This document shows, in pieces, positions 537-41,589 of a stretch of 64,000 nt of DNA. The DNA comes from Mrakia gelida. Its lineage: Eukaryota; Basidiomycota; Tremellomycetes; Cystofilobasidiales; Mrakiaceae. How positions within the stretch are numbered: position 1 is the stretch's first letter; each line of letters opens with the position of its first letter. Both the position numbers and the translations under genes were made by a program. The stretch spans positions 1,488,001 through 1,552,000 of the forward strand of contig BRON01000008.1 in the NCBI GenBank assembly GCA_024345305.1, given 5' to 3'. The notes below the pieces were generated by a model that saw nothing but the letters and a program-made list of their open reading frames with translations, was not told the origin of the DNA and made no database searches.

Positions 537-3130
537 TCACTCCCCCCTCCCCGTCCCCCCCTCCTCAACCCTCACGAACGTAGCCCTCTCCTTCCTCCCC
601 GTAACCTCCAACTTCCTCCCCAACCAAGCCAACCTCTCCAACTCCCCCATCTCCTCGATCCTCTCTCTCGCCACCCACTTCTCCGTTCTCTCAACGCAGA
701 ACGAACACGCCAGTCGCCCGTCGACCTTCGTGATCTTCCCAGGATCCGAAGGGTCCTCCTCGGCGAGTTCGAGCATCTTGAAGTACGAGGACTCGTCCTC
801 GCCTGTTCCGCACCAGTAGCAGGAGGGGGAGGTGGGAGAGAGAGCGGAGGGAGGGACGCCGAGTTGAAGGAAGGTTGAGGTTTCGAATTCGGACTCGGAC
901 TCGGAGTTGGAGTCGGAAAGAGGAGAGGGAGAGGGGAATTTTTGATGATGAGGATGGGACGGTTGTTCGTTCGAGTTCGATCCGGACGCGACTGGAGAGG
1001 GACTGAGCGGGGAGGCTTCGCGTCTGGGATGTTTCGACGACGACGAGGCTGAGGATGGACCGTCGACCTTGTCTAGTGAGCGTTTCGAGCTTGAGGGGGG
1101 TGAGTTGGGATGGTTTCGGGAATGGCCAGGAGTGGGAAGTTTGGAGCTGGACGATGACGAGCGATTCTTGAGTTTCCGAGCTTCCTCGAGAAGCCTGAGC
1201 CTGTTGCCGAAGTATCGAGTTTTGATGGCGCAGACGGTTCGGTCAGGATACTATCAGGGGTCGAGGAAGGAGTCGAAGCTGGTGTCAGTATACGGATCGA
1301 AATGAAGGGAAGGAACGAGAAGCTCGCGTCGAGTGAAGGCGGAACCGAACGCGGCGAAGAAACTTACCTTGGCGTGGAAGGCTTCGCAGACGTCCATGAT
1401 GGACGCGTATGGTCCAGCCAGGAGCTGAACGAGATCCTCCTCCTCGGCGACTGTCCAGTGGTTCACGAGAGACGTTCCTGCTTCGTCCTTGTCGTCGCGA
1501 GCGAGGAGCAGACCCTCGTAACGGTCCTTGTGCTTGTAGTAGTGCTTCCCGACGGCGTTGAGGGTTCGCCGAGGGTGCTGAGAGCAGAGAGAGTCGAAAG
1601 GAAACCAATTAGGTCAGCTTTGGGGTCTTGCCATCGCAAAAAGGAGAGAAACGAGCCTCCAGACTCAACAAGGCGGAGAAGTTCCTGAACGCGACGATGG
1701 GGGACCACGTTGACTGAAGGCATTTCCTGAGGTCCGACTGCTCTCGGGCGGTGTACCTGATCCTGATCCCGAAGCTTGAAGACGGCGAGAAAGTCATCAG
1801 AAGAGAGGAAGAAAGTCGGATAAGGGAGGTCGTCGCGACTCACCCTGATGCTACTCCCTCGACCGTTCCTTCTGGGGCGTCGTCGTCGTCGTCGTCGTCG
1901 TCCTCCTCTTCGTCCTCCGAGCTGTAGCGTCGAAGAAGGGTGTAGAAAAGTAAGGATCGAATGCGCAAGCCTCGTGCGCAAAGAGAACAAGAGCTCGATC
2001 GAAAAACTCACCACGACGTCTCCTCCTCCCTCGCCCTTTCCTTCCCCTTTCCCTTCCCGGCCATCGACACTCTCCTCGCCCTCCCAGGTGCATCCCCATT
2101 CCTCAACACGTCAATCCTAGCCTTGAACTCGGTCTCGTTGACTCGGAAGTGTTCTCGCAGCGCAGGCCCCGTTCGTCGAGTGAGCTGTGCGAAACGACGC
2201 GTCGACGGTCAGCTCGAGCGAGAGATGACGAGACGAGGGTTGACACGAGAGGAGTGGACTGACCTCCGTCAAAGCAAACCTATCGAAAGCGTTTCGACCG
2301 TTCTTGTCGAGAGCTAAGTAGTTTCCTTCGATGGGAAGGAGGAATCGAGCGAGGGTGTCGTCTTCGGATCTGAGCCATCGTCCGGAGGAGGGAAGGTCGG
2401 GAGGGGAGGCGCTGCAGAGAAGACGACGGTCAGTCAACGTCTCAGGCAGCAAAAGGAGAGAGAGTGCGACAAGACTCACCTCTCATCTCCATCACTCTCC
2501 TCCTCCTCCTCCTCAGCCTTCTCCATCTCAACCTCGACCTCCCTCCGGGCCTTCCCTTTCCCTCCCTTCGTAGCCTCCCTCTCCTTCCCAACCTTCTTTC
2601 CCTCAGGTCTCACAAACATATACTTCTCCTCATCCAACCACTCCTCCCAGAAGATACACTCCTTCAGCCACTCGGCCGTCACGAGAAGCTGAGGACGAGA
2701 CGAAGCGGAGGGAGGTTGTCGTCGAGCTTGATGTTGAAGGACGGCATCTCCGAAGGTCGAGGTAGGGTCGATAACGACGTGAGTCGCTTCGGAGAGGATG
2801 GCGGTCTGGCGAGGGGGTTTGTTGTAGGTGAATTTCTGCGAAGGAAACGAGGTGAGATGCGAGGTCAGTCGGGAGGAGTTGAGCGAAGGAGGGAGGGCTA
2901 AGCAAGGTCGAGCTCACGGAGAGGATCTGGACGATCTTGGGGATCACGGAGGCTGAGAGAGGGTCTAGGAAGAGTAAGAAGCTGTCGGGCCAGATGGCTT
3001 TCGAGCTGGACGAGAGAGGGTTGGATGGTGGAGCGGTGGAGGAGGGGAGGGGAGGAGGAGGAGGAGGAGGGGGATGTTGAGCTTGAGCTTGATCGCTCGA
3101 GGTTGCGTTGGGAGACGTTTGAGGCTCCAT
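537..3130 (-). CDS. BRCT-Myb protein A (Rap1-like family)
   Basis: Putative DNA/chromatin-binding protein. Exons resolved: 3130-2918, 2835-2480, 2411-2264, 2184-2012, then a short acidic exon (D7 run), 1774-1657, and further exons to the stop; phases agree. A proline-rich N-terminus precedes a BRCT-like domain (SFLLFLDPLSAS, then SEATHVVIDP and LLVTAEWLKECIFW). Three Myb-like modules follow: a divergent one (RWLRSEDDTLARFLL, LTRRTGPALREHF), an 'a' type (RYTAREQSDLRKCL, HPRRTLNAVGKHYYKH) and a 'b' type (HWTVAEEEDLVQLLA, YPDRTVCAIKTRYF). The C-terminus carries CYWC-x34-CSFC. The intron in the second module lacks a GT donor and uses GAG|GCTCGT if splicing keeps frame. BRCT followed by Myb is the order of Rap1. 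The homology to genes B, C and D is seen directly; the function is inferred. A TATA-like TTTATAAA lies at 3164-3171. Confidence 0.8.
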
Positions 3131-3442
3131 CTTCGAAGTTTCTTGGTCGAGATAGTCGTGAGGTTTATAAAGATCGACTGGTGCTCAGGATGGAAGGAGA
3201 AGGCTTCCCATGGAAGGATTGGAAGGGGAGGGAGGAGGAGGTGAAGGGTCAAGGGCAACTCCGACATGAGCTCGTCCATCTTCGTTCGTTCTCTTCCTTT
3301 TCGCGTTTCATTTAAGGGCAGTTTCGATCTGCGATCGATATGGTCGTATGCTAGGCGTGCTAGCTATTCATAAGTAGTACCTCCAAGAAATGTAGGCGAG
3401 GAAGCGAGAGGAACGGCCAGAAAGACGCGTTCGTTCGAACGA
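3131..3442. promoter_or_regulatory. promoter region of gene A / 3' flank of SLX4
   Basis: 312 bases between the SLX4 stop and the gene A start, both on the minus strand. TTTATAAA at 3164-3171, about 35 bases upstream of the gene A ATG, is a plausible TATA element. ACGCGT occurs at 3425-3430. No coding frame with family resemblance. Confidence 0.45.
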
Positions 3443-6400
3443 TCAATGGCGACGACGGGATCCAGCCTGTTCCTCTGTCCAGTAGGTGATGCACTGAAGA
3501 GCAGCGAAAGCGCAGAGAAGGTCAGTACTTAGTTCGACTCAACTCGAACCAAAGAGCAGGAAGTACTCACCTGTCCGTCCAACCACTTCTTCAGCGCCGT
3601 CTGCCATCCCTTCGTCTTGACCTTCTGTTCGTGAACGAGCGTGACGAGTTCCATGAAGTCGACGGGCTACCAAGTCGAGGAAGAGGAAGCGTCAGTATCG
3701 CGAACGTCCAACGAACGAACGAGAAAGACAGAGAGACGGGCAGACTCACCTCGTATCTCAAAACCCTCAACCAAAGATCCTCGTTCCTCACGATCATCGA
3801 CCTGAACAGCTCCGGCAGCTCTTCCATCGGGACCGAAACTCCATCCTCCATCTTCGTCGACGTGGACCTCTTCTTCTTCTTCGGCGTCGCGAGCGGAGCG
3901 TCCGAATCGAACTGGTCGTCGTCCTCCTCCTCACTCGACGCGACTCTCGCCTTCCCCTTCCCCTTGGCCTTCGACGAGATCTTCCGAAGGGGCGGGTCGT
4001 CCTCCGAGTCCGAATCGACGAGCTGGGTACGAGGAGGAGCCTTCGCCTTCGGGCGAGGTCGTGCTGGAGAGGGAGAGGGTGCTCGATCTTGTTCGTTGTC
4101 GTCGTCGGAAGATGCTGAGGAGGACGGGAGGGGATGTTCGAGCCACCAGTACTCCCTGAGGACGCGAAGGAGTTGGGGTCGAGAAGAGGAGACTCGAGTC
4201 CCGTAAGATTTCATGATTTTCTGAGCGAGCGCGAAGGAGGACGAAGGCGAAAGGAAGGCGAAAGGTCAGCTCGAGTCAAAGCGAGGCTGGAAGGAGATGA
4301 GTGGGCTGGACAAACCTGGAGTTGAGGGATCGACATCATCTCGTAGTCGGGCATGGGAGGATGAGCCTTCTTCTTCTTATTTTCCGTCGGCTTGTCGGTG
4401 GTGGTCTTCGGTTTGGGTTTCGAGGGAGTGATCGTCTCCTTCGGCTGTTCTTCTTCCTCCTCCTCCTCTTCGAGGTCCTCGAAGAGCTCCTCCTCAGCGA
4501 GTCCTCCAACGGCAGCCCCCTCGTCGTCGACCTCGACATCTCCAGCCTCGTCGTCCCAGACCAACACTCCCTCCTCTCCCCAGCGATCATCGCTCTGATC
4601 GTACGGCTCGTCCTCGTCGCCCTCCTCCTCTTCCTCGGCGTTCGAAGGCGTGCCCGAAGCGGTTTGGGAAATGAGAGGAGGTCGAGAGGATGAGATGTGT
4701 TCGAGAAGTTCGACGTCGTCGTCCGAAGACGCGTCTCGAGGAGGAAGGTCGTTCGCGTCTCCCTCGTCCCATCGAAGGACACCTTCTTGACCCCAGTCGT
4801 CGTCGTTGTCGTCCGAGAGGTCGATTATCTCTTGACGAGAAGAGGATCCGATGTTGGAGGAGCGTGACGGAGTTGAGGTTGACTGAGGAGGAGGAAGGAA
4901 GTAGGAGGAGGATGAGGCGTGACGAGGTGGAGAGTTGGACCAGAAGTCCTGCTCGGGGAGGGAAGGGGAAGCGAGTGGTGGTTGGTTTGAGTTGTGCGCG
5001 CGATGAGATTCAGTTTTGATGTCGGGAGGGTTGTTGCTGATGCTGGTGCTGGAGTGGAACGAACGGGAAAGATTGGAAGAGGGAGAGAAGAGGTCGTCGC
5101 GGTCGTTTGGTTTGGGTCTGGAAGGTGTTCGTTGCTTGTGCTTGTGTGGTATCGGAAGGTCGTCGTCGTCGTTATCGTCGATGCTGATGATGCTGATGTC
5201 TCGTTGATGCTGGCTCCTTGAGCTGTTCGTCGTCGTCTCCTCCTCGTGTGGTGATCCCATCCTCTCCTCGTCCTCCTCCTCGCTCTCCCCACCCTCTTCC
5301 ACCATCCAACCCTCCCCACCCTCCCCTACACCCTCACTCGTCATCTCCTCCCTCTCCTTCCGCCCCTGCGAGATCGAAGAGTCCTCTCCTCTCTCCAGCT
5401 CCTCCTCCGAATCGAAACGTGGACTTTCCTCCTCGTTCGCCGTCGTCAACGGCACTCTGGGACCTGACGTCGCCGAGAAAGGACTTCGAGGACTCGGCAT
5501 CGACGGGGAGTTTTCGTTTGAGCTGTCGAGAGGAAGTTGATCGGTGGTTGAAGAGGAAGGTTGACTGATAGGGGTCGGAAGAGGCGAGGAGGCGGCGGAG
5601 GACGACGACGACGAGATGGAGATGATGGTTTGGGTTGGGACGAGGGAAGAGGGTTTCGAGTGAGGTTGAGGAGGGGAGGGAAGCTAGAATCAGCGTTAGA
5701 TATCATTAGGACCAGTGGCTCGAAGGGGACGAGAAGAAGAACGGGAAGACTCACGATGTTCTCGTCTCCCGCTCTCTCGAGCTGACTCGCCGTCGTATCG
5801 ACTGCCAGACCCCAGAGCGAGGTCCTAGGTCGTTCCTGATCCTTCGAAGTCTGCTCCTCCTCCTCCTGATCCGTCTCGTCGTCCATGGACGAATCCGATC
5901 CGCTCTCGTCGTCCTCCTCGGACGAATGACCTCCCAGTCTCGACGGTCCAGCTTCGTTCGACGATCCATCCTCCTCGCCGACTGCCCAGAGCGACCTCTT
6001 CTCCTGACCCGAGCCCTTCCTCGCTCCAAACCTAGCAGCCAACCCGGAGGTTCCGAAAGACTGAGTCGAAGGCGGTCGTCGTTCCGCCATCTCCTCGTCC
6101 TCGTCGTTTCCGTCACCTCGACGCGTCTCGTTGTCCTCCTCTCCCATCAGACTCTCCACGTTCCGCATCACGCTCTCCCTCGAGAGCTCGTGTCCAGCGG
6201 GAAGCACCAGCGACGGGATCGCCGAGGCTCCCTTTCCTCGCTTAGGTTTGGGTTTCTTCATCGTGAGGGATTCGAGGAGGGTCTTGGGTTCGGGAGCTCG
6301 AAGGTGGGTGGTGATTTGGTGGGTGAGGAGAGCGAGGGAGAGAGGAGGAGTGGCGAGGAGGGAGCAGGAGTAGAGGTGGGCCTGAGGGAGTGAAGAAGAG

Positions 6401-7855
6401 GGTTAGCTCGTATCAGGACAAGAAGTGGGAGACACGAGCAAGAGGGAGAAAGAGAGAGAACGAACCCATTTGACCTTGACGGTTTTCTTCCCCGTCGACC
6501 AGTCCTCCTGACAGAAGATGCACTTCTTGACCTTCCTCATCTCGATATCTCGGATCGTGCAGTCTGGAACGACGATCTTGACGGTGGCTGAGGTCGAGGC
6601 TGATCGAGATTTGATGCCTCCGTTGGAGGTCGAGGCGGAGAGGGAGCGTCCGGCGTAGGCGAAGTTCGAGAAGTGGTTGTTGGCTGGGATGCTGGGATTG
6701 GGAGGTGAGGTCGCGGTGGGAGAGGCTGTTGCTGTCGGCGAGGGGGATCGGAAGGGTGAAGGGGATCGGGAGTTGATGGGTTCTTCGTCGGGAGGAGGAG
6801 GAGGGTTGGACGCGACGCGAGAGGAAGCCTTGGACGTGGTGGAGACGGAACGAGATCCTCGAGCCCTCCCTTTCCCCTTCCCCAGCGTTGACTCGTCGAC
6901 CAACAAGACCACATCTTCTGCCTCCTCCTCGTCGACGCCTGGAACCGCATCCCAAAGCTGACCAGCCTGATCCTCCTCCTCCTTGACGCTGTCGAACATC
7001 TTCTTCTCGAGCAAGGAGCGAGGCTCCTTCCCTCCTGCTTTGACGATGTCGAGGTAATCTCGGATGAGATCGAGGAGGGTAGAATGGGAGGGAGCGGGAG
7101 TGCAGTTGACGAGGTGGGCCTGGGAGGTCGAAAAGAACGAGCTGAGTAAGTGAAAGACACGACGAGGAAGGAAGGACCGATCTCGAGCTCACCCATTTGG
7201 TTCGAGTCTTCTTCCCTGGTTGAGACCAGTCCTCTCCGCATAGAACACACTTCTTGAGTCTCCTCATCTCTACATCCGTGAAGGTGCACTCTGGAGGAGC
7301 GTCTGAGGGATCGATGGACTTTGATTTTGATCTTCGAGCTGTGGCGAGGGAGGTGGAGGAGGAGGAGGTGGAAGGGCGAGGAGGGAAGTAGGAGGAGGTC
7401 GTTGGCGCGGGAGGAGCTGCTGAGGTTGTGGTAGTGGAGGTGAAGGAGTTAGACGAGGTGGATCCTTTGAGTTTTGCTTTTGGGTAGGCGTAGGACGAGA
7501 AGTCGATGGGTTTGGTTGTGATGGTAGCGGTAGGAGAGAGGGAGGAGAAGGGGGAGGATCCAGCTCGAGCTCCTTCGTTCCTCCTCCCTTTCGAGGTTGA
7601 CGAGCTCTCCTCGACTCCTCCCCCTGCTGCTTCACCCACCCCTGCCCCTGCTCTACTCGAGCCTGCTGCTGAGAACCCTTCCCCTGTCCCACTCGATCTG
7701 GACGTCGACCCTCCTCCTGCCTGCTGTTCTTGTCGGAGCTTCTTCTGTTTCCTCTCCTCCCTCTTCTTTGCTTTGAACGCGAGTCGTTGCTGTTCTCGTT
7801 CAGGTTCAGAATCCTCGACGAGTTCACCGGGAGGAGAAGGAGGAGGTGTGTTCAT
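3443..7855 (-). CDS. SLX4: structure-specific endonuclease subunit SLX4 with two UBZ4-like fingers
   Basis: Scaffold that binds and activates the Slx1 nuclease to cut branched DNA during recombination and repair; nuclear. Seven exons, all phase 0: 7855-7193, 7119-6466, 6381-5755, 5683-4316, 4220-3750, 3666-3571, 3493-3443; they give 1309 residues. Two zinc fingers of the form C-x2-C-x16-H-x3-C lie at residues 203-227 (CVLCGEDW...AHLVNC) and 421-445 (CIFCQEDW...AHLYSC). A long acidic, serine-rich middle follows. The C-terminal Slx1-binding domain is recognisable (LRYEPVDFMELV, then LKKWLDGQCITYW at the extreme end). The ATG at 7855 is the first in frame; the frame runs further upstream only through TTG. 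Family assignment rests on the C-terminal domain plus the fingers, which resemble the ubiquitin-binding tandem of animal SLX4/FANCP. Confidence 0.86.
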
Positions 7856-8317
7856 GGGTGTCGCGAGAAGGGAACGTGGTCGCACCGATCGGGGAAAGAA
7901 GGAAGGAAGGACGTCGTGATGGGTGAAGGGGAGGGGAGGAGAACGCGAGCTCAACAAAGATGAAAGAGCAAAGAGACGCGCGTTTGACTCCGTCTTTTCG
8001 AGCAAATTTTGAATCAAAAGCGCCTGATAGCAGAGTCTCTGCTGTTTAAAAACCTGTCTCTCATGTACGACCGAATTTATCCACTTTCGAGCTCTCGGGA
8101 GCTAGAGACATCAGCGCAACAGCGGCGAGCTGAAATCTTTATCCCACTCGACTTCTCCTCTTCGATCAAAGCAGGAAAACCCATTACAAAAGTTGATGCC
8201 CAAGATGAGAGAACAGGCTAGGCTATGATAGTCGAGAAAGAGCGCCAAATACAACCAACGCGTGCGAAAAAGAGAGAAAGAACCCGACGCAAACCCAAAC
8301 CGATCGTGCGAGCGAAG
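7856..8317. other. intergenic between SLX4 start and permease stop
   Basis: 462 bases holding the SLX4 promoter and the 3' flank of the permease, both minus-strand genes. The stretch around 8000-8270 is less GC-rich than its surroundings. No conserved frame seen. Confidence 0.45.
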
Positions 8318-11246: not shown

Positions 11247-12060
11247 GGATGGGCTGGATTGGTTGCGATGAGATGGGGAGTCGAGAAGGGGAAGGAAGAG
11301 TCGACGTTGAGGGGAGGATGAGGAGGGGGGGCGATTTGATCGAACGGTTCGATATCTCGAAGAGCCGCTCCCTCCCTCTCTCGCCTGGCCTATCTCTGGA
11401 CGCAGTGCGTGTTCCTTCTTCCTTCGCACCGAGAAGAAGCCGGAGGACCTCGTCCTTCCCCAGAAACGGTCAGTCGATCTTCGTGATGGCAGGAAAAGAG
11501 CGCTGGTAGAGAAACAGAAGAGCTCCCGTTTTGGACCCGACGAACGATAAGGTCGCGTGGTCTTTCTGCTGGAACGAAAAAGGTTGAAAGTCTTCGTAGA
11601 GCTCGAGAGGAGAGCCAGAAGGTTGATAGACGCGCTTTCCACGATCCTGTGGGGTTGGAGGAGGAGAAAAGCTTCCTGTTCGGCGAGGATGGGCCGAGGA
11701 GAATCCTTATCGCGTTTCGACCCAATCGACGCCGGCTCGAACGAGAGAACGAAGAGCAGGATTGCAGGTCGACGCTGAGAGCGAGAAAGGAAGAGGAAAG
11801 TTTTAGGGGGTACGAGACAGATGTCTGGAAGGGAAGCTTGACGAGAGTCGACGCGAGGTAGTCACCGATTCAGACGCGTCGCGTCACAAGCCATCTTTTC
11901 TATTCTCTCTCTCGCTCCTCTCTTCCTTCGAATCTCTCCCGCTCCCTACTGCAGAAAGTTCGAATCCTCGTGAAATGAATTACAACCCAAGACCTTGAAA
12001 CCAAACCCAAGTCTAAGCGAAACGAAACGAACACCTCCCCTGCACGCCGTCGTCCTCTCC
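11247..12060. other. intergenic, promoter region of permease
   Basis: 814 bases upstream of the permease start and downstream of the glutamine synthetase-like stop. Open frames here (for example 11557-11778 +) show no family motif. I see no RNA gene. The length suggests a regulated promoter for the permease, but no specific operator was recognised. Confidence 0.4.
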
Positions 12061-21094: not shown

Positions 21095-24000
21095 ATGTCA
21101 ACTTCCATCACCCCCAAAACGGAGCCTCAAGAGCTCGAAACGATCCTTCTACCAGCTCCTCCTTCTTCCCTCCTCTCTCCCTCTCTCTCTACGGACCTCA
21201 AGCCTGCTCTCCCACTCTCCCACTCCTCGATGGAAGCTGCGTCCAACCCATTCTTTCTCATCTACTTCGATCCTGCTTCCGAGAAGGCTGGGAAACTCTG
21301 TGGAGAGCTCATCGTTCGTTCCCTCCTTCTCGACTCGCACTCGCTCCACCTCTTCTTCGTCCCCCTCTGACCCTCTTGCTTCCCTTTTCGAACAGAACCA
21401 AACCCAAGATACGACTCTCTTTGTCACCAGTACCCTCTCGGAAGCTTCTCACGTCGTCGTCGAACCTCCTTCCACCCTTGGAGACGACCTCCTTCGAATT
21501 CGAGCTCGAGCTCAACCTCCCTCCTCCTCCTCCTCGTCCCCGTACCTCCTCACTCTTCGATGGATCGAGAACAGCATCCGCCTGAAGGACTGGCAGCCAA
21601 AGGACAGCTACCTATACGCTCCTACTGTCGACGTGAAGGAGGAACAACAGCAGCAGAAGCCGAGGATCAAGAGCGAAGGGATGGACGTCGACGTCAAGCC
21701 TCAAGTCGTCGCGAAGGTCACGAAGGAGGAGGAGAAACCGTCCAAGATCGAGCAGCCGAAGACGGAACCTCCGACTCAGTCGCAGGAGGTCGGGGATGTA
21801 GTCACGAGAGATGTGTCTGAGGCGAGGGAGGATGAGAGGGAGATGGGAGAGGTCGAGGAGTCGTTGGAGTGAGTCTCGCGTGTTTCGTTCGACGTTCTTC
21901 TCTTCTTAAGCTGAACGCCTCGTGTTCTGCTTACCCTGCTTTAGGGAACAACCCGAAGACGTCGGATCGATGGACGAGGAGTCTCTCGATGTCGCAAACG
22001 GTCGAGATGGGAAGCCGAAGAGGATGTGAGTCTCTTTCGCGTCGCGTTAGAACGACTCTCTCCCTCTTTCCGCTGACTCCTCATCTTTCGCGTAGTTGCA
22101 TTCAATGGACGGCTCAAGAGGAGACGGATCTCGCTTCCTGCCTTCGCGACAGTCGTTCGGTCAACGAAGCTGCGCAGAAGCTGGTTGGGATCGTGAGTCG
22201 GACGCGCCCTTCGAAGCTCCTGCACCTCACTCGCTGACCTTTTCTTTTTTCGTTTGTCGTCGTGAAGCATTCTCGTCGATCCTACGCAGCTGCTCTTTCT
22301 CACTACAAGGAAAACAAGTCCAAGTTCGTGGACGACACGTCCAAGCACACGTTGTCGAACAAGACGAAATCGAAGCCCTGGACGAAGGAGGAAGACCGAG
22401 ATCTCGTTCGTCTCCTCGCCTCGGCCGCGAGGACAAAGACCACTCGGGTTCAGATTACTCGCCTTTTTGTAGCACAGGTACGTGTTTTGGCTTCCTTGCA
22501 GTTCGAGAGCGAGTTCGTTTCTTTCGTCCCGCTGACCTCGTTCCCGCCCTTCGCGTTCCTGATCGATTTTACAAGCATCCACACCGCTCGATCAGCTCAG
22601 TCGAAGGTCGATACAGCACCCAGAAGGAACGCTTCGACAAAGCTCTTCGAGCGCTGCAGGAGGCTCAGTCGTCGTCGCCCTCCTCCTCGCCCTCCCTCGC
22701 CGGTGGGTCTCACGTCACCAGATCTCACACCCCTTCGGATCTCGATCCACTGGAAGGTTCTACCTCTCAACACCTCGCCAAGAGTCCTTCGTCGTCACAG
22801 GAAGAGGACCTCGCTCGATTACTTGCATCTCTCGATGTCAACGTCGACCCTCTCGCTCTCGACGAAGACGGACGAGACTCTTTCGACCACTACTCGGAGC
22901 TGGACGTGGGTGTACGAATCTCTTTCGCGTCAACCTTTACATGAAGGGAGCTATAGGCTGACTCTAGTCTCTGCTCGAACTCGTTTCCCTCCGAAGTCGA
23001 CCGACCGACTCGCCGACGAATGCAGGAAGGACTACCAGCTCAGGAAGGACTCGTTCTTCGACCTTAGAGTACAGGAGATAAGGAGAAATGATTCTTCGAG
23101 GGTTGGGGATAGGAAAGGGAAAGGGAGGGGGGTTGCGGTGAGGTAAGTCTGATCGCGACGTGACGAGACCGACGGCGACGAGGTACCTGATTCCTTCTCT
23201 CATTTTGTGGTTCCTCTCCCATAGCGAACAGAACGACCACATCGATCAGTCGAACTTCGAGGTCGACAACCTCCTCGACGGGTTGGATGGTCTTGAGCCA
23301 AAGATCAGGACGACGTGAGCTCTCGACTCATTCGGACATCCGCTCACTCTTCTCGTTCGTCGCTGACTCCCCTTCGTTTCCTGATCTACTCCTCAATCGA
23401 CCAGTACCATCAAGTGGACAACTCAAGAGAGCGATGATCTTGGTCTCTGTCTTCGCGAGAGCTCTTCGATCCATGCTGCAGTTGAGAGACTTTGCAAGAT
23501 GGTCAGTTCTGTTCCTCTTGTTATTTCCTGCTTTCGACGAGAACGTCTCGACTGACTCAAAGCTGTTGCTCGTCTGTACAGCATCCTCGTCGAACTCCCC
23601 TCGCAGCAAAACGGTACTACAGCTCCAACAAGATCAAGTTCGCCGACGACGCCGCAAAGGGAGCCGTCGTCAGAGCCGCTTCCTCGTGGACGGCAGCAGA
23701 CGAGGAGCACCTCGTCCATCTTCTCGCTTCGGATCCCCCAACGACCCTCAAGGAAGCTGCTTGCCTATTCGTTCAGCAGGTGCGAGTCGGTCCCCGCCAA
23801 TCCTCTTCCTTTCGTTCTTACCTCGTCCGCTGACTCGCTGTTCTCAACGTCTTCTATCGTTTCACAGCACCCAGATCGGTCCGTCGATTCCGTCGGAAAC
23901 TGGTACTACAAGCACAGAGATCGGGTCGACAACGCTGTTCAAGAGCTCAAAAACACTCGGTCGTCGTCGGATCTCAACGCGTCCACGTCGTCTGCCTCCG

Positions 24001-26031
24001 CTGAGTTCGTTATCCGTTAAACCGACGCTCTTTTTTTGCGCATCATACTGCTACACACTTTGCGCTTGAGCTGACAGTCTTATCGGTTCCTACTTTTGGT
24101 TCTAGCTCGTCAAGCACGAGGTCGCGAAAGTGGGTCCTCTATTCTTCGACTCTCGACGCAGCCTTCTTCACTCACTGACCTCCTTCTTCCCCGTCACTCT
24201 AGGAGACTCGTCCCTTACTCTGCTCAGGAAACTACCGACCTCCATCGATTCCTTCGAGAGAGTCAGTCTACCAAGGAGGCCCTTGAGAAGATGTCGACCC
24301 AGGTCGGTCGCTCTCCTTTCCTCTTCTTTCATCAACTTCCCCACACGACATCGATGCTTTCGCCCTCAACTCGAGCTGAGGCGTTTTACTCGATCTTTCA
24401 GTATCCTTGTCGATCGGTTCCCTCCATCCAGTCCTTCCTTTCCAAGAACAAGTCAGATTTCGTCGACGACGTCGCTGGCCACTCCAACTCGAACTCGAAA
24501 TGGGCCGTCGCCGAGGAAGAAGATCTCGTTCGACTTCTCGCTGCTTCTTCTGATCCGCTTCAGGTGATATTCGCGTCCTTCCACAATGAGGTGAGTCTTC
24601 CACGACCTGAACATCGAGCCGGCGTCGACGCTTTCTCTCGGAGGCTGGAGCCCTCGAAGCGTTCGACTGACTCACGCGAATCTTCCCTTCCACTCTTCCA
24701 GCATCCTACCAAAAGTCTCAATGCTATCAACAAGTACTATGGCCAGAACAGGGCACGTCTTCAAGAAGCAGCAGAGTCCCTGCAGAGGTGAGCTCGCCGT
24801 CGTCTCACGTCGCGTCGACGAAAGACTGACACTCGCCCGTCTCGATGTTATTCATCCTCGCATCGGATGCCAGGCCTTCGACTCAACCGCACATACCGTC
24901 CGAAGCTGATACTGGAATGGACGAGACCGTCGATGGGAGGAAGCAGTCCGATCAGAAGAAGAAGAGGACGTGGTTCGTCGACGCGTCTTCTTCGATTGAG
25001 CGCTCGTCTTCGCATATTGACTGGGTCTATTTCATCTCGCTCCATTTGAACAGGAACGGAGTCTTGGTCCCATACAGCAGCCAAGAAACGGACGATCTTC
25101 GAAGAATCCTTCGAGAGAACCGGAGCGCGGTCCAGGTCGCCGAGAAGATGTCGAAGGAGGCTCGTTCACCTTCTTTCTCTTCCTCTCTTCCGCTCGCTAG
25201 AATGCTGAGCACCGGTTTTTTCTCTCCTCTCCCCAGCATCCTCGCCGGTCAGCGAATTCGGTCAGGCTCTACCTTCAGCAGCACAAGACCGAATTCGTCG
25301 ACGAGCTCGCGACGCTCACTTCCTTCGCGCGATGGTCGACCGCCGAAGAGGAAGATCTCATCAGACTCCTCACCGGAGCCATCGGAATGGTCCAGAGTGT
25401 CTACGAGGCGTTTCATCAGGAGGTGAGCGCCACTCGACTCGAAGCTCGTTTCGTTCCCCTTCGATCCTTCGACTGACCTTATTTGCTCGCGCACTTTCTC
25501 CAGCACCCCTCGAGAACGGCTGCCAGTGCCAGAGATCATCACTCGAAGCACCGAAAACGCATCGACGAGGCAGTCCAAGCTTCAAGAATGGAATCTTCGT
25601 CTTCGTCGTCGTCGTCGTCCGAACTCTCCGTCGTCGGTTCCTCCTCCTCCTCGTCCAGCCATTCCTCAAACTCCGACACGGCCAGTACCTCTCCATCTGA
25701 GCCCACTTCTTCCTCATCCTCGAAACGAGCGTCGGACGATCAGTCGCAGCCGATCCTTCTCAAGTTCAAGCGACCCAGACTCTCGTCGAACGAACCCTCC
25801 TCGGTCGCGTCCGGATCCATCTCTCGATCCTCCACCACCCCTGCTCCACCGTCCTCTCAGCATCTAGCAAGCTCGGCTCCCTCCTTCTCGCTCCCCTTCG
25901 GCCTCCCTCGACTCGGCCGTCCTCCTCTTCCCTCGATGGCGACGGGCTGTGACGACGCGGGATCAGGCGAGGGGAATGGGGGAGCTGAGGAAGATGGGAT
26001 CGGCTCAGAGCTCGGGGATATGAGCGATTGA
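21095..26031 (+). CDS. BRCT-Myb protein B with about nine Myb modules (Rap1-like family)
   Basis: Largest member of the local BRCT-Myb family, probably nuclear. The BRCT-like domain is split by an intron as in genes A, C and D (FFLIYFDPASEKAGKL, then LSEASHVVVEPPSTLGDD and LTLRWIENSIRL). An acidic/lysine linker leads to Myb-like modules near 22.10, 22.38, 22.80, 23.40, 23.69, 24.20, 24.50, 25.05 and 25.33 kb. They alternate between an 'a' type ([W/Y]TxQExxDLxxxLRES) and a 'b' type (WxxAEEEDLVRLLA); the third is the divergent type seen first in gene A. Each is cut by a phase-0 intron immediately before an HPxRS/T-like motif and a YYxxHxxxF helix. The tail is Ser-rich with a basic KFKRPR. It lacks the C-terminal Cys motif of A, C and D. 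The eighth module's intron has a GC rather than GT donor. Start at 21095 is the ATG nearest the BRCT exon; function is inferred. Confidence 0.8.
22095..25585 (+). repeat. tandem array of Myb-like exon pairs in gene B
   Basis: Nine modules, each encoded as exon half 1 (helices 1-2), a phase-0 intron of about 55-100 bases, and exon half 2 beginning HSRRS, HPHRS, STDRL, HPRRT, HPDRS, YPCRS, HPTKS, HPRRS and HPSRT in order. Half 1 is 29 residues from the leading aromatic residue to the splice site in the 'a' modules that were counted (first and eighth), and this holds for gene D as well. Order by type is a-b-c-a-b-a-b-a-b. The pattern implies duplication of an a+b two-module unit with its introns. 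Confidence 0.75.
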
Positions 26032-27897: not shown

Positions 27898-28276
27898 CCG
27901 ACGAGCGTGCAGGGGTCCTTGGGAGAGGGAGGTGAGAGTCGAAGAGGACGAGGCGGCAGCAGCAGGGAGAAGACGACGGGTTAAGAGCGAGGTAGCCACG
28001 ATGGGCGAGATCTCCGGTTGGGGGAGAAAGAGGGACAATGGGCTGATTGAGCGTTGGGAGGAAGAGAAGAGTCGGGAGCCAGCGAGAAGGAGGAGGTCGA
28101 GAATTCAAAGTAGGTGACGAGCTTAAACCCCAACGACAGCTCGACCTTCAAACAAATTTGCCCAAACTCAACTTCTTCGGATTTTCGACAATCTCATCAA
28201 GCTCTACGGACCCTCTCCAACTTGAACGAGCTCCCCAAACGCATCCGAACCCTCCTCTCCCTCCTCCTCCTCGCAA
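27898..28276. promoter_or_regulatory. divergent promoter, P-loop kinase / MYND gene
   Basis: 379 bases between two divergent starts, possibly shorter if the kinase begins upstream. No TATA box or operator recognised. Confidence 0.4.
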
Positions 28277-29387: not shown

Positions 29388-29710
29388 TGACAGTTTGCAT
29401 GGAGCGGATTCTTTTCGTCGGATCTATGTGGATGCGGGGGAATCGTCGGGGGTCCGAGCCTCATTAGTTGGGGAACAAGCGAAGCGAAAGAAAAGACGAT
29501 CTCGACGCGTCGAGCTTTTTCCCGCTCGCTCTTTCGCCCCCCTTTCCTCTTTCCCCCGAGCCATCTGATCGATCCACCCACCCACGTTCTCTCTCTCTCT
29601 CCCGCACTCGAGCATCTGTTCTCCTGATCAAGCTCCAAACCAATTCATTCATTCAAGATCGTTTCACCACTCCACCTCCTCCCGTCCTCCTCCTCCCTCT
29701 CTCCGGCCTC
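29388..29710. other. convergent intergenic region
   Basis: 323 bases between the MYND gene stop (+) and the VPS36 stop (-). ACGCGT lies near 29507. No gene recognised. Confidence 0.45.
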
Positions 29711-32101: not shown

Positions 32102-32273
32102 CCCAAGGAAAAGGAAGGAAGGGAGAGGGAGAGCAAGATGTGGTTGGCCGTCATCGAAACCGACGAGCTCGTTCGCCCTTCCTCTCGCTCTGAAGCTCAA
32201 ACCGCCAGCAGCTCACTTTTACTCATCTTCTCTTTCTCCCCATCTCGTTCTCCATCCATTCCCCTTCCTACGG
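32102..32273. promoter_or_regulatory. divergent promoter VPS36 / VPS53
   Basis: Only 172 bases separate the two ATGs, so two endomembrane-traffic genes share one promoter. No TATA box is evident; the sequence is CTCTTTCTC-rich on the VPS53 side. Confidence 0.5.
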
Positions 32274-35200
32274 ATGGATATCCCTCTCGTTCTGAGCTCT
32301 GAGCTTAACCTGAAGGAGGTCGTCGATGCACTCCTCCCAGATGGCGAGTCCTCCCTTCCCTTCCCTCCTCTCCTTCCCTTCTTTTTTCCGAGCTCCCTCG
32401 CTTCCTAAGCCTTCTACCCGAGCTGACTATATCTTCTCCCTGTCCTGGCCTTAAAGAAGAATCCCTGTCCCAAGCCGCCCTGGTCCAATCTCGCCTCCGG
32501 AATCAGCTTCGAGAGACTCGCGATGAGATCGCCTACCTCCGCGCAGAACTAGACAAGGATCAGAGCTCAAACAGAATTCAGATCATTCAGGAACTCATCG
32601 TAGTAAGTCCCCTAACACCCACCTTACTCCTCTCCGTCTCTCGCTTGAGGAAGAGGCGGCGAACGAGCTGCAGCAACGACCCAACCCAAAGCTCACCTCC
32701 TTCGCCTCGCTGTCCCTCCCCTTCCCTTTCTCCAGGAGCTCCTCCTCCAAACGAATCGCATCAAGGAGAAGGCCACCGAGTCCGAAGCCATCGTCAGGGA
32801 CATTACGAGGGACATCCAAACCCTCGACAAAGGAAAGAAGAACCTCATGGCTTCCATCACCATCCTCAAACGACTTCAGATGCTCGGTGAGCTCAGCTCG
32901 ACCTCCTTCCCCCTTCTCTCTCTCGCCTCCGCCCTGCTCACCTCCCCTCGTTTATTTCGTCTGTAGTCACCGCCCTAAGCCAACTGGAGTCTCTCGTACC
33001 CTCCAAACGATACAGAGAGATCGCTTCGAGTCTGCTTGTACGTTCTTTCTCCCTTCTGTTAAGCTTCCGAGAGAGGCTCGAGCTGACCTTCGCGTTTTGC
33101 GTTCGTTTCGCAGGCCGTCAAAGAGCTCTCGATAGCGTTCAAACCCTACGTGACCGTCGATCGAGTAGCTGCGATGTACAAGACTGTGCAGGAGAGGCAG
33201 AATCAGTGTAGGGGCTTGGTGACGGATGAGTTTGAGGCTTTGTGAGTCGAACTGTTCCACCCGACCTCCCTTCGTCGCGCGACGACGCTTGGTGTTTCTG
33301 GAGCGAGAGAGAGAGCTGAGAGCTGACTTTGCTTGGCTTGGATGGGATAGCTTCGTACCTGAAGCGAACAAACCTCCTACGAACCCGACGACGTTGAGTG
33401 AGGCTTGTGCTGTGGTGGACGTGTTGGGGGATGAGGTTCGGTGAGCTCTTCGTTTCACTTCTCTTCGGTCTCTCGTTCGCTGCTCGTTCGAACGAGCTCC
33501 ACCTCGTCGAGAATGAGCTCGTAGATAGACCCCCACTCGCTCGAACCTTCTCGCTGACCCTCCTCTCTCGTCCTCGGATCACGATAACAGAAACTCCCTC
33601 CTCGACCGATACGCGACGCTCGAACTGAGGGAGTACCGAAGGATCTTTCGTTCTACTGATGAGGTGAGCATTCACACCAATTCATCCGATCCCTCCTCGA
33701 CCTTCACCTCGTAGTCACTCGTCGAAACATGTCTGACTCTCTTTTCGACGCGTCCTCGCTCACTCGCCCAGGCCGGTCAACTCGACAACATCGCCCGACG
33801 CTACGCCTGGTTCCGTCGGATCCTCAAAGCCCACGACGACGATCGAGAGAGGATCTTCCCTGAGAGTTGGAAGGTCGGACTGCATCTCTGTGCTAGGTTC
33901 GCTGAGGTTACGAGGTACGTCTCGCTCGCGTCTTCGTTCTTCGTTGTTCCGACGCGTCTCGCTTCGTTCGTCTCGAGTGAACAATCTGAGAACCGAGAGC
34001 TGACGTACGTTTTCTTTTCGCTCGGATGGAAATCGAACAGTCAAGACCTCTCCAACGTCCTCGCCAAAGTCTCCCCTCTCTCGGTCGGTGTGCTCATGGA
34101 GAGTCTGCAAGCAACGATCGCGTTCGAGCAGCAGATGAGCAAGAAGTACAACCTGCCTGTTCGTGTACCCTTCCTCTCTTTATCCCTCTCGGTCCCTTTC
34201 GCTTGGGCCGCTGGGTCGCGTCGAATCGAACCTGACCTCCCCTCGTCGCGTCGTTCGTTTCTTTTCGTCCAGTTCGCCGAAATCGTCCGCTCAGCCCTTC
34301 CTTCAACATCTTACGCCAGCCCTTTCACTCCCATCTCGACAACCTTCGACCCTTACCTTTCCGTTTACGTCGAGGCGCAGGATAAGTAAGTCCGACGAAT
34401 CGTTCAATCCAAATTCGAATCTCCCCTCCCCCTCCCCCTCCTTCCACTCGCCCGTCGTTCGCTTCCTGACCTCCTCTTTCCCTTTTCCACCTCCCTTCAC
34501 TTCGTTTCCGTCGTTTTGCAGAGCAATAGCAGACCTCCTCGCTCCCTCTCGAGGGCTCAAATCTCGATCCTCCCTGGACTCGGCTAACGCTGCTGGGTCC
34601 GTCGAAGGTGCGGCGCCAGTGAGGGTCCTGCCGAGCTCGACGGAGATGTTCTACTTCTATGGGCAGACGTTGGAGCAGTGTGCTAGACTGAGGTGAGTGG
34701 CTGAGTGGGTGGGCGGGGGAGGGCGGGTGGTTGGATGGGTGGGCGGGTGGGCGGAAGGGTGGAAAGGGCTGGGAGGACGAAAGAGAGATGAGACGAGACG
34801 AACTGACGCGCGTTTTTTTTTGGTTCGCGTTTGGGGTTCGATCAGTCGAGGGATCCCTCTGAAGGATCTGGTTAAGGTGTTTGGGAAGTGGTTGAAGGTT
34901 TATGCTGGTACGTCGTCTCCGCTACTTGTTTTTCTAGAGAACGAGAGCTTACCGGTACCATTTTGCTTTCGGCAGAGGACGTGTTGCTCAACTCTCTGAA
35001 GAGGTTTGTTCCCGTTTGCTCACAAGCTTGAACCTGGCTCGAGATAGCATATCACTGACCCCTTTTCGCGTCTTCGCTCGCAGAACCGACCCTACCGGCC
35101 GACGCTCGACGGATCGACGTTCAGTGGAGGGAAGAGCGAACACTCAAGAGCTGAGGAACACGTGTTTGGTGCTGAACACGGCTGAGTACTGTCATACTAC

Positions 35201-36799
35201 TGCTTCTCAGGTAAGTCACGTCTTTGAAGGCTTGTTTTGCGAGGAGGGAAGGCAGGAAGGGAACAGGAGACGCGTCGAGCGAGGAAAGAGAGTTGAGAAC
35301 CGAACTGACGAGTCGTTCTTGCCTTTCGATGCGCGTGTCGAGCAGCTGGAAGACATGATCAAAGAACGCATCAACCCTGAACTCGCCGACCAGATCTCGT
35401 TCGAGGCTGAGAAGGATCTCTTCGTTTCGTTCGTCCCGTCTCGACCCAAGCCTTCCCTCTCCCCTCCTCTCCCCTTCCTCTCTCTCTCTCTCGTACTAAC
35501 GCTCGCAATCTTCCCTTACCGTCTTCCCTCGTCACCAGCGTCATCTCCTCCTGCCTCCTCTCCCTCCTCCGCGAACTCGAAACAACCATCGAACCCACCA
35601 TCGCTCTCATCCTTCGAACCCCTTGGGAACACATCGAGAACGTCTCTGGACCTTCCGTCTACGTGCTTGAGCTCGTGAGAGGGATCAATCAGGTCGGGGA
35701 TGTGATCAGGGAGGGAGTGGAGGGGAAGAAGTACGAGAGGAACTTCTTTGATAAGGCTGTTGGGTGAGTTCGCCGTTCTCCTTTCCTTTCGTTCGTTTGA
35801 AGTCGAGCTTGAACTGACCTTTCCATTCGTGTTCCGATTTGCAGAGTCGTGATGTCGAGGATGATCCAGGCGGTTGTTAGGAGTCGACCGTTGAAGAAGG
35901 TTGGAGCTGAGCAGGTGCGTCTTCGCCGTCTCTTCGTTCGACGCGTCGAGCTTCGCTGATCACCGTTCGTTCGCTCATTCGCCTCTTCGCAGCTTCTCCT
36001 CGACCTCTCCCTCCTCAAGCGGTGCTTCCTTGAGCTTCCCAATTTCTCGAAGGAGGACGCTAGGAGTTCAGCGTACGTCTCCTTCTTCTCGTCTCCTTGA
36101 CTCCTCGCTCCAGCTGACTCGTCCTCTCCTCGTCGTCGTCGTCTTTTCACAGCTCCTACCAACGACACGTCCAAGCCGTCACCTCGCCGTACGAAACCAT
36201 CCTCAAGGTTGTTCTCGCTCCCGAGGATCCTCCGGAAGGTTTCGTCCAGAACTACACCCTTCTCGTCAAGGATCGATCGTTCAGTAATTTCCAGAAGGTC
36301 AGTCGAGTCGCGTCGCACCTTCTTTTCGTTTCGCTCGCGTCGCGCTGATTCCTCTCTTCCCTTCGTCTGGTGCGCTCTCTTACAGATCCTCGACTTCAAA
36401 GGAACCCCTCGAAAAGAACAGAACCATCTCCTCGATATCTTTATCGCTGTGACTTCGGTTCAGGTTCGTCTCTCATCTGGTCTTTTCTCGTCTCATCTCG
36501 ACGCTCCCATCCCTCCCTCACTCGCTGACTTCCTCTTCTCTCCCTTTCGTTCTTCGCTTCCTCAGGACGACCTCACCGAATCCTCCTTCCTCTCCTCTCT
36601 CGACATGGACATCACCGCCGCTCCTCACTCGGTCCTCATGAACGCGAGTGCTTCGGATCGCGCTCTCCTCTCGCCCATCGGGAGTGCGGTGAACTTGACG
36701 GGGCTGGTGGAAGGGTTGGGTGGAGGGGAAGGAGGAGCGAGTAGTAAACCCTTCGGGAGCTTCTTTAGGAATCTGACGAGGAGGGAGAGTGGGATGTGA
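32274..36799 (+). CDS. VPS53: GARP complex subunit VPS53
   Basis: Tethering subunit for endosome-to-Golgi vesicles. The N-terminal exon MDIPLVLSSELNLKEVVDAL ends in LLPD and continues, through a GC-AG intron at 32344-32456, into EESLSQAALVQ, restoring the LFPDEQSL-like start of the family. The coiled-coil Vps53 N region is clear (ESEAIVRDITRDIQTLDKGK, KNLMASITILKRLQML). The body reads through many small exons (LAVKELSIAFKPYVTVDRV, RRYAWFRRIL, VLMESLQATIAFEQQMSKKY). The C-terminal region has the conserved ASYQRHVQAVTSPYETILKV, EGFVQNYTLLV and FQKILDFKGTPRKEQNHLL. It ends in a Gly/Ser-rich tail. Complete; about 20 exons. The exon borders near 33.9-35.1 kb were read by eye and could shift slightly. 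Confidence 0.92.
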
Positions 36800-36929
36800 T
36801 CTTGGTTTCTCGGGATGCGCTCTCGGGAGGAGAAAGAGGAGAAGGAGTAGATGTTCTTCGAGATGTCAGGAAGGACGATAGAAGAGTCGTGATAGAGACT
36901 GATGATGGAACGTAGACTGCGAGAGTGGT

Positions 36930-39304
36930 TTGGATGCAAAAGGTCTCGAAGGAGAGCAATGGTGGAGGAGGCTGCCTGAACCTCCAAACGTTCGAGCTCA
37001 CCTCCTCCTCCCTGCACCTCCGTCTACATCCCACCCTTCTCAACACGTCCTCTCTTTCGATGGATCTCCTTCTGGAATCTTTCGCCTCTGCGCCTCGACC
37101 TCAACCTATCTTCTCGGCTGCCATGCCGTCCCCTCCCCCTTCAGCAGACTCTCAACCCAACCCATCTCCTCCCTCCTCCCAGCTCCACCTCTTCCTCCTC
37201 CTGCTCCACCTGCTTCCCCTTCCGTTTCCAACTCGAACCTCACCTCTCAGTCATGGCCAGAGAACCATAACGGACCTCTCCTCCTCTTCTTCGACCCTTT
37301 CTCATCCAAAATCAGCTCGCTCAAGACCGAGATCCAGGTCAGTGAATCGGGTCGAGCTCACCACTCCTCCCTCCCTCCCTCCTCTCTCTGACCCTTTCCT
37401 TCGTTTATCTCCTTCGCTCAGAACGACTTCTTCTCTTCAGGCAAGAGTCTTCCTACTACCGTGCTCGCCATCGAAGCTACCCATCTCATCCTCGATCCGG
37501 ACTGCCCTCAGAGCTCGTGGGTTCGTCAAGCTGCTCGACAGGATCAGCACGTCGTCGAGGACTCTCTGTTGCACGGCTTCTCGGTTCCTGAGGGAGGCTA
37601 TCAGATGGATTCGCGTGGATTTGGAGAAGCTCCTAAGTCCTCATCGTCTTCTGGGAAGGGGAAGTTGAGAGAAGTGGAAGAGGAGGAGGGACGAGACGAG
37701 GAGGAGGAGGAGGGTCGAGAGGAGGAGAGGAGCGATTCGGGACCGGACGACTCTTCGAGCGAGGACGAGGAGGACGATGTGTACGCTGGAGAGCAGAGAT
37801 CAAGGTGAAACCTTCCCCTCTCTCTTAATTCCATCAATCCCCAACTGACGGTCTTTCCTTCTCCCTCGCGCGGAACGAACCAGGGTTCAACGTCGTCCTC
37901 CCGGAAAGCATCGTCCCGTCACGAAAGGCTTCTGCCACAACTGCCTCACCAAGACTTCGAACGACTGGAGACGGTTGAAGGAGAAGGGGAATGCTCAGAC
38001 GTGTGGAGGGTGCAGGTTGGCTTGTGAGTCCCTTCTCCCTGTCTCGCGAGCGTTCGACGTCGTCGTCGTCTCTCCTTTCTTGAGACTCATGCCCGTTTGT
38101 TTTTTGTGCTGTGACTCCGTGGAATAGACTACAACGCGAACAAGAAGAACCCTGGTTCTGGAGACGCTGCCCTCGCCGCTAGGAAGACGCTGGTGGAAGA
38201 AGACGAACGCGCGAGGTCGTCGACTCTGAGGATGCCGAGCGAGTCTCTGCTAGGTACGTAATCTATGCTGAGTTCTGTGAACGATAACCATCGCGACTGC
38301 TGACATAATGATCACTGACTATCAGCTTTGCTTCCCTCGTCTGCAGTCGGAACCCTTTCGCGTCTGCGACTCGACATCGAAAGAGACGTCTTGCGTGGTC
38401 GGAATCGGAGCATAAGGAGCTCGCTCAGCTCATCGCAGACTCACCGGGGGCTACGAAGCTCGACATCCACAAGTCTTTCAGCAGTCAAGTGAGTCAGGTC
38501 TCGGTCTGGACAAGTCGCGCTCGAACGACGTCGACCCGTCTGACCCGTCCTGTTCTTTCCCTCCAGCATCCCGAGCGAACCGCGTCGGCTAGGAAGAATC
38601 AGTACGATCTCAACCGCTCTTGGTACGAGACCGAGGTTCGTCGACTCAGGAGGAAAGGGAGGAAGGAACATCGCATCGAAACTGGATCGATCGCGGAATC
38701 GGACTCGGACTCGAACCTCGACGCTCGTCCTTCTTCTCTCCCTCCGGCCTCGATCCCAAACCGACAGCAACCCGTCACTTCGTCGTATCGTCTTCCCGGC
38801 GCTCAAGGGCCTTCTCGCAACACCACGATCGAACAACCTCCCCGACTCGTCCCAGTCGCGTCTTCCTCGACCTCGAACCCCCACCAACAGCCCTTCTTCT
38901 CACTCTCGAACCCCAACCTCCTACCCCATCCTCAGCATCATTCTCTTCCTCGACCTTCCGCTCCCTCCTACGACACAGAAACCGAGCATCAGCCCCAGCG
39001 CTACCTCCCCTCCTCCCCCGAGCCGGACGCGTTTCGAATGATCGGCGTCCCTCCTTCCTCCCTCGCTCCCAAAGCTCGCTTCTGCTACTTCTGCGGAACG
39101 ACTCGAACGTCCTGCTGGTATACCGTTCGCGACCTTGTTGGCTGGAGGGAAGTCAACGGAGAGAAGATGGTTTCGACTGCTCCTTCGCGAGGAAGCTGCA
39201 ACGGGTGCTACACGTTCCAACTGAAGAGGACGAAGGAACCGGGCGTTCCCAAGGACGTTTGGGAGGGTGGAGAGCAAAGGACGTTGCTTTGGGCGACGGA
39301 GTAG
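36930..39304 (+). CDS. BRCT-Myb protein C with GATA-like finger (Rap1-like family)
   Basis: Short member of the family. A long proline/serine-rich N-terminus leads to the intron-split BRCT-like domain (PLLLFFDPFSSKISSLKTE, then LAIEATHLILDPD and VVEDSLLHGFSVPEGG). An acidic stretch follows, then a GATA-like finger: CHNC, 19 residues containing NDWRRLK, CGGC, followed by RLAYYNANKKNP (37932-38013 plus the next exon). A single Myb-like module follows (RLAWSESEHKELAQLIADSP, phase-0 intron, HPERTASARKNQYDLN). The C-terminus has GVPPSSLAPKARFCYFCG and CNGC, giving C-x2-C-x34-C-x2-C as in gene A. Start at 36930 is the first ATG of the BRCT frame, 130 bases after VPS53, and is uncertain. The finger is the only one of its type in the window; DNA binding is inferred. 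Confidence 0.75.
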
Positions 39305-39583
39305 TTGTTGGTGAGGGGAATGAGAATGCGGAAGGAAGTCGTTGAAGGGAGGTGAGGAGGGACTGGTGAGAGATGCGTCGAGGCGAGGGTTGGTTGGTCG
39401 AGCTTTGCTTTGCTTTGTACTTCGTTGTTCCTTTCCTCTTTAACGACACCGTAACGACTACAACTCCAACATGATGTAGCTTCAGACGCACTCGTGAACA
39501 ACGTAAACGTAGAACGAGATAATGAAGCAGAGCAAAACAACGACATCGAACCCGCGACGCGACTCCCTCTCCCTTTCTCCTCC

Positions 39584-41589
39584 TCATCCCTCATGCCTTC
39601 TTCTCCTCTCCTCCAACCCTCTCCGCTTCAGCCTCTCCGTACACCAGATGTCCCTCTCCCTCGTTCCCATCCTCTCCACCTCCTCCTCCTCGTCGTTGAT
39701 CCTCCGATCCACCCACTCGAGGCACCCCTCGCAGACCATCCTCGCGAACCTCGTCGTTGCCTCAGGATCGGACCAGCTCGGTTCCGCCAGCTCCATTCGA
39801 CTGAGCAGACGGGAAGCGTCGCCGCACGCCCAGCAGGAGGGAGAGCCAAGGGAGGACGCGACGCCGAGTTGGAGAGAGGAAGAGGGAGGTTGGTTGGTGG
39901 CGACGGATGGGTCGGGTAGGGATTGTGGGTGGTGGTGTTGCTGCCAATTTTGGGGTTGGTAAGAGGGAGTGAAGGAGGAGGAAGGAAGTGAAGGGGAAGG
40001 ATATCGGTCCGGACGCGACTGGCGAGACGCCGTTCCAGTCCTCCCCCGCTGATCCGATCCTCGGTCGCTTTGACGACAAAGGGTCCGATGCCCGATGACG
40101 CGAAGCGTTTTCAGAAGAGGGAGACGGGGGTCGAGAACCATTGTTGAGCTCGAAAGACGGAATCGTGGCGGGGAGGACGATCTCGCGCCGTGGTGTGACT
40201 TTGGCGAACCGCTCTCGATGCCTGTAATGGATATTGGTGATGGCCTTGATGGATCTGTGAGGGTGCTAGAGTGCGTTGAACGTCGTGAGAGCGAAGACGT
40301 CGCGTCAGAAGTTCGTCCGAACAGAAACGTCCGACCAACCGACGCCGTGCGACTTCGAGAGAGACTAACCGTGGCATGGAAAGCTAAGTATACATCGCCG
40401 AAGTTTCCTGTGGATGTAGCAAGGAGCTGAGAGAACTCTTCGAGTTCAGTTTCCTCCCAGGGTAGGTGCAACGTCGTAGCCGGGAGCGAGGAGGCGAACT
40501 CGGATATGTGCCGGAAGTAGTAGCCCTTACACGCTGAGGGACTCCGTCGAGGGTGCTGGAGAATCGCATAAAGATGGTGAAGGAGGAGTCAGCAAGGCTT
40601 TGGGAAGAAAAAGAGGTGCAGCAACGATTCCAAAGAGATGAAGACTAACCTGCCTGTTCATCGCCCTCCCAGCTGCCCTGATGCTCGGACTCTCCCGAAG
40701 GAGCGTTCGAAAATCCGATAATTCCCTTTGCGTCCATGTAAAGTTTCCAAAGCAGCTGGAGAGCGTGAAGCACATCGCCAACGTCAGCACAGGCGAGTCG
40801 CGAGGGGACGGAAAACGGAAAGGGTCGACTCACTCTCTCAACTCCTCGTTCAGCTCATCTCGATCTTCTGGATCGATCTCGTCCTCGTAGTTGTCAACCG
40901 GTACAGTTGGGGGCATAGCTTCGTCACTTGACAAGTGCAGACGAAACAGGAAAGAAGGTCAGCTTCATTCTTCTTCTTCGACGCGTCTCGCCGAACCGAC
41001 TCACATTCTCGCTCCCAAATTCCCCTGCCCACCCCGACCTCGCACATCCCCCGGGATATAGAAGTAACCCTCCACTGGCTGCCGCTGCTGCATCCGAATG
41101 CTATCCTCGATACATTCGAGGGTGAGAAGGAACGGGGAGGAGGGATGGGAAGACTGAGCTCGCGCTCGAAAGAGGTCGTCCCCGAAGGTCGAACGAGGGT
41201 CGACGACGACGTGAGTGGCTTCCGAGAGGACCGTGGAGAGCGAAGATCCTTGACGTCCTGTAGATGCCTAGAGGAGAAGGAAAGAAGATGGGATCAGTCG
41301 GAGAAAGCAGGGGCTGGCGCGAAAGAAGGAGGTGGAGGGAAGAACGAACGATGAGACGCGCAGAGAGCGCTCTAGCCCTCTCAGTCGTGTCATCGATGAA
41401 GACTCGGAAGGTGGCAGCTCTCGAAGGCTCGATGTCGTCGGAGATGGGGGTAAGATAAGCTTCCTCGATGGTGGAGGAGAGATAGAGAGAGGCAGGCGGA
41501 GGAGAAGGAGGGGGCGCAGGAGAGGGTGCGTGAGCTCGTTGGGATTGAGAGTGAGATTGAGGCCGGAGAGGGACGAAGCGACGCTGCAT
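39584..41589 (-). CDS. BRCT-Myb protein D (Rap1-like family), frame break before C-terminus
   Basis: BRCT-like domain split by an intron (AATFRVFIDDTTERARALSA, then LSEATHVVVDPRSTFGDDLF and LTLECIEDSIRM), an acidic linker, one 'a' Myb module (FTWTQRELSDFRTLLRESPS, phase-0 intron, HPRRSPSACKGYYFRH), one 'b' module (LPWEETELEEFSQLLA, phase-0 intron, HPHRSIKAITNIHYRH), and a C-terminal Cys motif (SPSCWACG ... CEGC, 30 residues between pairs) ending RRRRHEG. The frame entering from the second Myb module differs by one base from that of the Cys motif. A 58-base GT-AG interval (40125 down to 40068) with a weak GTCTCC donor would reconcile them; otherwise the gene carries a frameshift that removes the Cys motif. 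Start at 41589. Tail-to-tail with gene C, 279 bases apart. Confidence 0.72.

Follow-up and report, generated by a model that had tools for sequence, protein, structure and literature searches.

The DNA analyzed here, a 64,000-nucleotide window of the Mrakia gelida genome (GCA_024345305.1, contig BRON01000008.1, here C8; C8:1488001-1552000), carries four intron-rich paralogous genes, A to D, whose exon structures were obtained by manual splicing of the window sequence. Each begins with an N-terminal BRCT domain that is followed by Myb-like modules, three in A, nine in B, one in C, and two in D, and the degenerate modules are the first of A and the third of B (Table 1). An earlier note made from the sequence alone had proposed four paralogous BRCT-Myb genes with these module numbers; splicing and paralogue profiles confirmed the genes, and the numbers were correct. 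A, C, and D end in a four-cysteine domain, and none was seen at the C-terminus of the spliced 1131-aa protein of B. The BRCT core reads LSEATHVVIDP in A, LSEASHVVVEP in B, LSEATHVVVDP in D, and IEATHLILDP in C. The intron said to split the BRCT domain lies at an identical place in all four genes, and a donor and acceptor pattern is found there in 15 of 18 family members, A to D included. The introns of the four genes are GT-AG except for two predicted GC-AG introns (A 1656-1578, minus strand; B 25160-25236, plus strand), which share the donor GCTCGT and an equivalent position within the module.

Genes C and D are less regular. No in-frame ATG was seen around 36930, where gene C had been said to begin; its exons were recognized between about 37183 and 39304. 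Apparent frame breaks occur near 38213-38215 in C and, ahead of the cysteine domain, between about 40010 and 39945 in D; these may represent decay, an unrecognized intron, or an assembly error. The GATA-like finger of C compares with Pfam GATA at an expectation value (E) of 0.43 and with the GATA-type PDB entry 2kae at 0.47, amid unrelated matches of similar rank.

Table 1. Genes A to D and their domains (window positions; BRCT ends are approximate).
Feature	Position	Strand	Remarks
Gene A: BRCT, 3 Myb-like modules, C-terminal four-Cys domain	537..3130	-	8 exons, 669 aa
A, BRCT	2602..2998	-	intron 2917-2836 splits domain
A, Myb pair	1176..1761	-	intron before HPxR(S/T) helix in each module; holds GC-AG intron 1656-1578
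A, C-terminal four-Cys (CxxC...CxxC) domain and long helix	540..872	-	
Gene B: BRCT, 9 Myb-like modules (4 pairs and one degenerate)	21095..26031	+	19 exons, 1131 aa
B, BRCT	21240..21625	+	intron 21314-21395 splits domain
B, nine-module Myb-like array	22100..25578	+	
Gene C: BRCT-like exons, GATA-like finger, 1 Myb-like module, C-terminal four-Cys domain	37183..39304 (start about)	+	
C, GATA-like finger CHNC...CGGC	37918..38140	+	intron 38024-38127 splits finger
C, C-terminal four-Cys domain	39029..39304	+	
Gene D: BRCT, 2 Myb-like modules, C-terminal four-Cys domain in shifted frame	39584..41589	-	6 exons
D, BRCT	41046..41420	-	intron 41349-41268 splits domain

The BRCT domain of the family has been shown by profile similarity. 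Single-sequence Pfam scans (E<=1) found no BRCT in any of A to D, and PF00533 (BRCT) matched none of 17 paralogous BRCTs taken singly, one of which reached LIG3_BRCT at 0.034 and another RTT107_BRCT_5 at 0.16. A profile of these 17 spliced sequences, from which gene C was excluded, retrieved 29 PDB matches at E<=1, all of them BRCT proteins, including polymerase mu (the best, 2.2e-4), PAXIP1, BRCA1, TdT, Brc1, ECT2, and ligase IV; for some of the 29 the BRCT content was assumed from the protein name. The reversed control, made with 7 of the 17 sequences, returned two unrelated matches and no BRCT. The conserved tryptophan of the last BRCT helix was recognized by eye in 16 of the 17 rows and is a cysteine in D.

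The Myb identity of the modules is well supported on the same kind of evidence. In single-sequence Pfam scans at E<=1, a weak Myb match was obtained for B and for no other of the four genes. Searched against the PDB, a profile of 37 modules placed c-Myb first (1.4e-4, summed over its three repeats), and the top six matches as well as 13 of 20 overall were Myb/SANT proteins; the same modules reversed gave 10 matches, none of them Myb, with a best value of 0.24. Pfam Myb_DNA-binding matched 9 of the 37 at E<=0.1, two above the curated cut-off. For the contiguous module at C8:873553-873855, three helices are predicted (predicted local distance difference test score 72) with weak helix-turn-helix matches. 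Both domain assignments of the earlier note were supported by profile searches.

The genes A to D belong to a family that is concentrated on their own contig. Five protein searches of the genome (34,857,517 bases in 25 contigs) with Myb, BRCT, and C-terminal queries gave 31, 26, 34, 49, and 39 matches at E<=0.01 (179 in sum; matches overlap, include the query genes, and provide lower bounds, although every first-look candidate was scored). C8 makes up 5% of the assembly and holds 177 of the 179, the other two falling on one gene of contig C1; between 0.01 and 1 there were six further matches outside C8 (two on C6 and one each on C3, C5, C7, and C17), with one search listed only to 0.1. By a rule of our own based on strand and distance, under which single-domain clusters may be fragments, the C8 matches group into 44 clusters between 529 and 1665 kb (1.14 Mb) at a median spacing of 15 kb, and since the last cluster contains two BRCTs the number of loci is about 45. 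The local family previously described is real, and its scale is about ten times larger. Some 45 fast-diverging genes for probable DNA-binding proteins lie, nearly all of them, within one chromosome stretch, and such packing looks unusual for a fungus.

An F-box-like family that adjoins one BRCT-Myb member served as a control. Its listed matches, 150 of 151, are spread over 19 contigs, indicating that the genome search was able to show multi-copy families genome-wide; 14 of those listed lie on C8, four of these being the query genes. The F-box name was given by eye, and 150 of 411 first-look candidates were scored. Two F-box-like copies in inverted orientation flank one BRCT-Myb gene (C8:1461152-1461361 and 1465179-1465670). 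By eye, the copy on C1 carries a BRCT, then three modules, and finally the C-terminal domain, and it could be either a founder of the family or a migrant from it; one of its modules scores above the Pfam Myb cut-off, and its BRCT was not found by single-sequence scans. No such family is described in the titles and abstracts listed among open-licence PMC papers on Mrakia genomes (20 of 33), basidiomycete Rap1, and BRCT-Myb families (12 of 464 in one search), and no paper there joined Mrakia with BRCT. The main text of the Mrakia gelida genome paper (PMC12749792) mentions neither BRCT nor Myb.

Taken together, we favor a reading, at a probability of roughly 0.6, in which A to D belong to a set of some 45 paralogues, all of them nuclear regulators that bind DNA and whose specificity is diversifying, and in which this set grew by intrachromosomal whole-gene duplication. 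Paired Myb modules would bind DNA side by side, with a higher number of modules reading a longer site, and the BRCT and the C-terminal four-Cys domain would recruit partners. The family would have grown by duplication of whole genes within the chromosome, after which changes in the Myb recognition helices and in module number would have led copies to bind different DNA targets. They may act as local transcription or chromatin factors, in the manner of Rap1 with its BRCT and tandem Myb domains or, as a population, of KRAB zinc-finger genes. Of 54 Myb columns, the three aligned to K, N, and N in helix 3 of c-Myb rank within the six that vary most; diverging targets would produce such a pattern, but so would positions that are free. 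If these are DNA-binding regulators, about 45 BRCT-Myb variants, with 1 to 9 modules among A to D, would be present in the genome of one cold-loving yeast, and a simple fungus would then allow a test of how DNA recognition grows through module duplication. A further question is why this dispersed family keeps to one chromosome while the adjoining F-box-like family covers 19 contigs.

Several observations weigh against such a role. Neither a 13-module profile nor single sequences gave a significant Myb match; with the 37-module profile each c-Myb repeat is weak singly (best single-stretch E 6.1), and only one PDB match falls below 0.01, the second standing at 0.02. Foldseek on the predicted module model returned nothing at E<=0.001. 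The variable positions of helix 3 may be only unconstrained surface. The paralogue pairs compared for the ratio of nonsynonymous to synonymous substitution (dN/dS; see below) are short, mutually related, and only those >50% identical. Lastly, an in-frame TAG interrupts a Myb exon of the paralogue near C8:1378k, and with the frames broken in C, D, and this paralogue some copies may be decaying.

Those same broken frames are what would be expected of plain birth-and-death in a duplication-prone stretch, with copies redundant or decaying and confinement reflecting only local duplication and inversions. Whole-gene similarity among relatives inside the C8 interval is plain, pointing to whole-gene duplications there, and the nearest relative by BRCT identity lies 13-174 kb away for 14 of 18 copies; for the other four, however, it lies at 579-724 kb, and distance along the contig does not predict relatedness among the 18 (Mantel r 0.09, p 0.14). 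The BRCT tree is poorly resolved, with good support for 3 of its 15 inner branches. Also against this account, dN/dS is below 1 (0.17-0.77) in the 21 paralogue pairs listed, which suggests purifying selection on the coding exons, and domain plan and introns are retained across paralogues <50% identical. We consider birth-and-death of this kind unlikely, though it is the likeliest of the rivals to a set of DNA-binding regulators.

A bolder extension of the favored reading concerns mammalian KRAB zinc-finger genes, which occur in clusters of many copies and encode modular DNA-binding arrays of varying length. As a population, the BRCT-Myb genes are likewise clustered, multi-copy, and endowed with modular arrays of varying length, a likeness by analogy only, as the domains are unrelated. 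That a chromosome-confined, diversifying BRCT-Myb repertoire might be the fungal counterpart of the KRAB zinc-finger repertoire, with new copies or longer arrays recognizing new targets such as repeats and one chromosome being kept through the mode of duplication, is a speculation we regard as distinctly unlikely.

The order of N-terminal BRCT and then Myb domains is that of Rap1, a factor acting at telomeres and promoters in fungi and animals, to which the earlier note had linked the genes. Two modules show weak similarity to Myb_Rap1 (PF08914), one from a paralogue (E 0.001) and the first of the C1 copy (0.012), both below cut-off; a genome-wide PF08914 search found none, and its controls were likewise empty. 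The Rap1 C-terminal domain (PF11626) gave no match at E<=1 in six pieces of A to D, other paralogues not having been scanned whole, and genome-wide its best match (E 0.127, on C2) lies outside the family and below cut-off, with 0 of 14 control genomes matched. Because no Rap1 C-terminal domain was found in the pieces of A to D and the Myb_Rap1 matches are sub-threshold, the family is not called Rap1; of the proposed link, the domain order and the two weak matches stand. A true Rap1 orthologue might have multiplied, its copies still serving telomeres or subtelomeres, and duplication of RAP1 in methylotrophic yeasts (PMC6510891) counts in favor along with the domain order and weak matches. Yet A, C, and D end in a four-Cys domain, C has a GATA-like finger, and the family here has 1 to 9 modules and about 45 loci inside one contig with ordinary genes between them, so we judge this origin improbable. 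Tay1 and TRF-type tandem Myb telomere proteins of fungi are similar in having paired Myb motifs but differ in that, as described in PMC7952879, there are two such motifs close to the N-terminus that strongly resemble TRF; the word count for that paper shows no BRCT. The telomere repeat of the genome is TTAGGG, which is absent from the terminal 200 bases at either end of C8; short interstitial TTAGGG runs lie away from contig ends at C6:1070274, C6:1255531, and C3:2270383.

A C8-linked system for recognition or drive (mating, meiotic drive, or centromere related) would suit the near restriction of fast-diverging matches to one contig but is very improbable, as the STE3 genes found sit on C16 and the window part of the interval carries ordinary genes, namely those for glutamine synthetase, VPS36, a CUX1/CASP-like protein, a G-alpha subunit, an FtsJ methyltransferase, and a metallophosphatase. 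The two STE3 pheromone-receptor genes are about 38 kb apart (C16:465013-466017 and 503471-504508), and C16 also has weak homeobox matches. One STE3 gene of the genome shows 56-58% identity to Mrakia frigida.

Upstream of the family members, the motif TYGACCTCRACC, picked by eye, was present with at most one mismatch in 10 of 18 stretches vs 201 of 2762 in the background, window positions 37095 and 41857 included, and may reflect common descent. The segment 20997-21163 of the window, which runs from just before B into the gene, shares 80% identity with C8:1396042-1396204, more than the 71% shared by the BRCT exons of these two genes. Elsewhere in the window, a long open frame without a Pfam match contains an internal repeat (6463-6606 and 7190-7333, minus strand).
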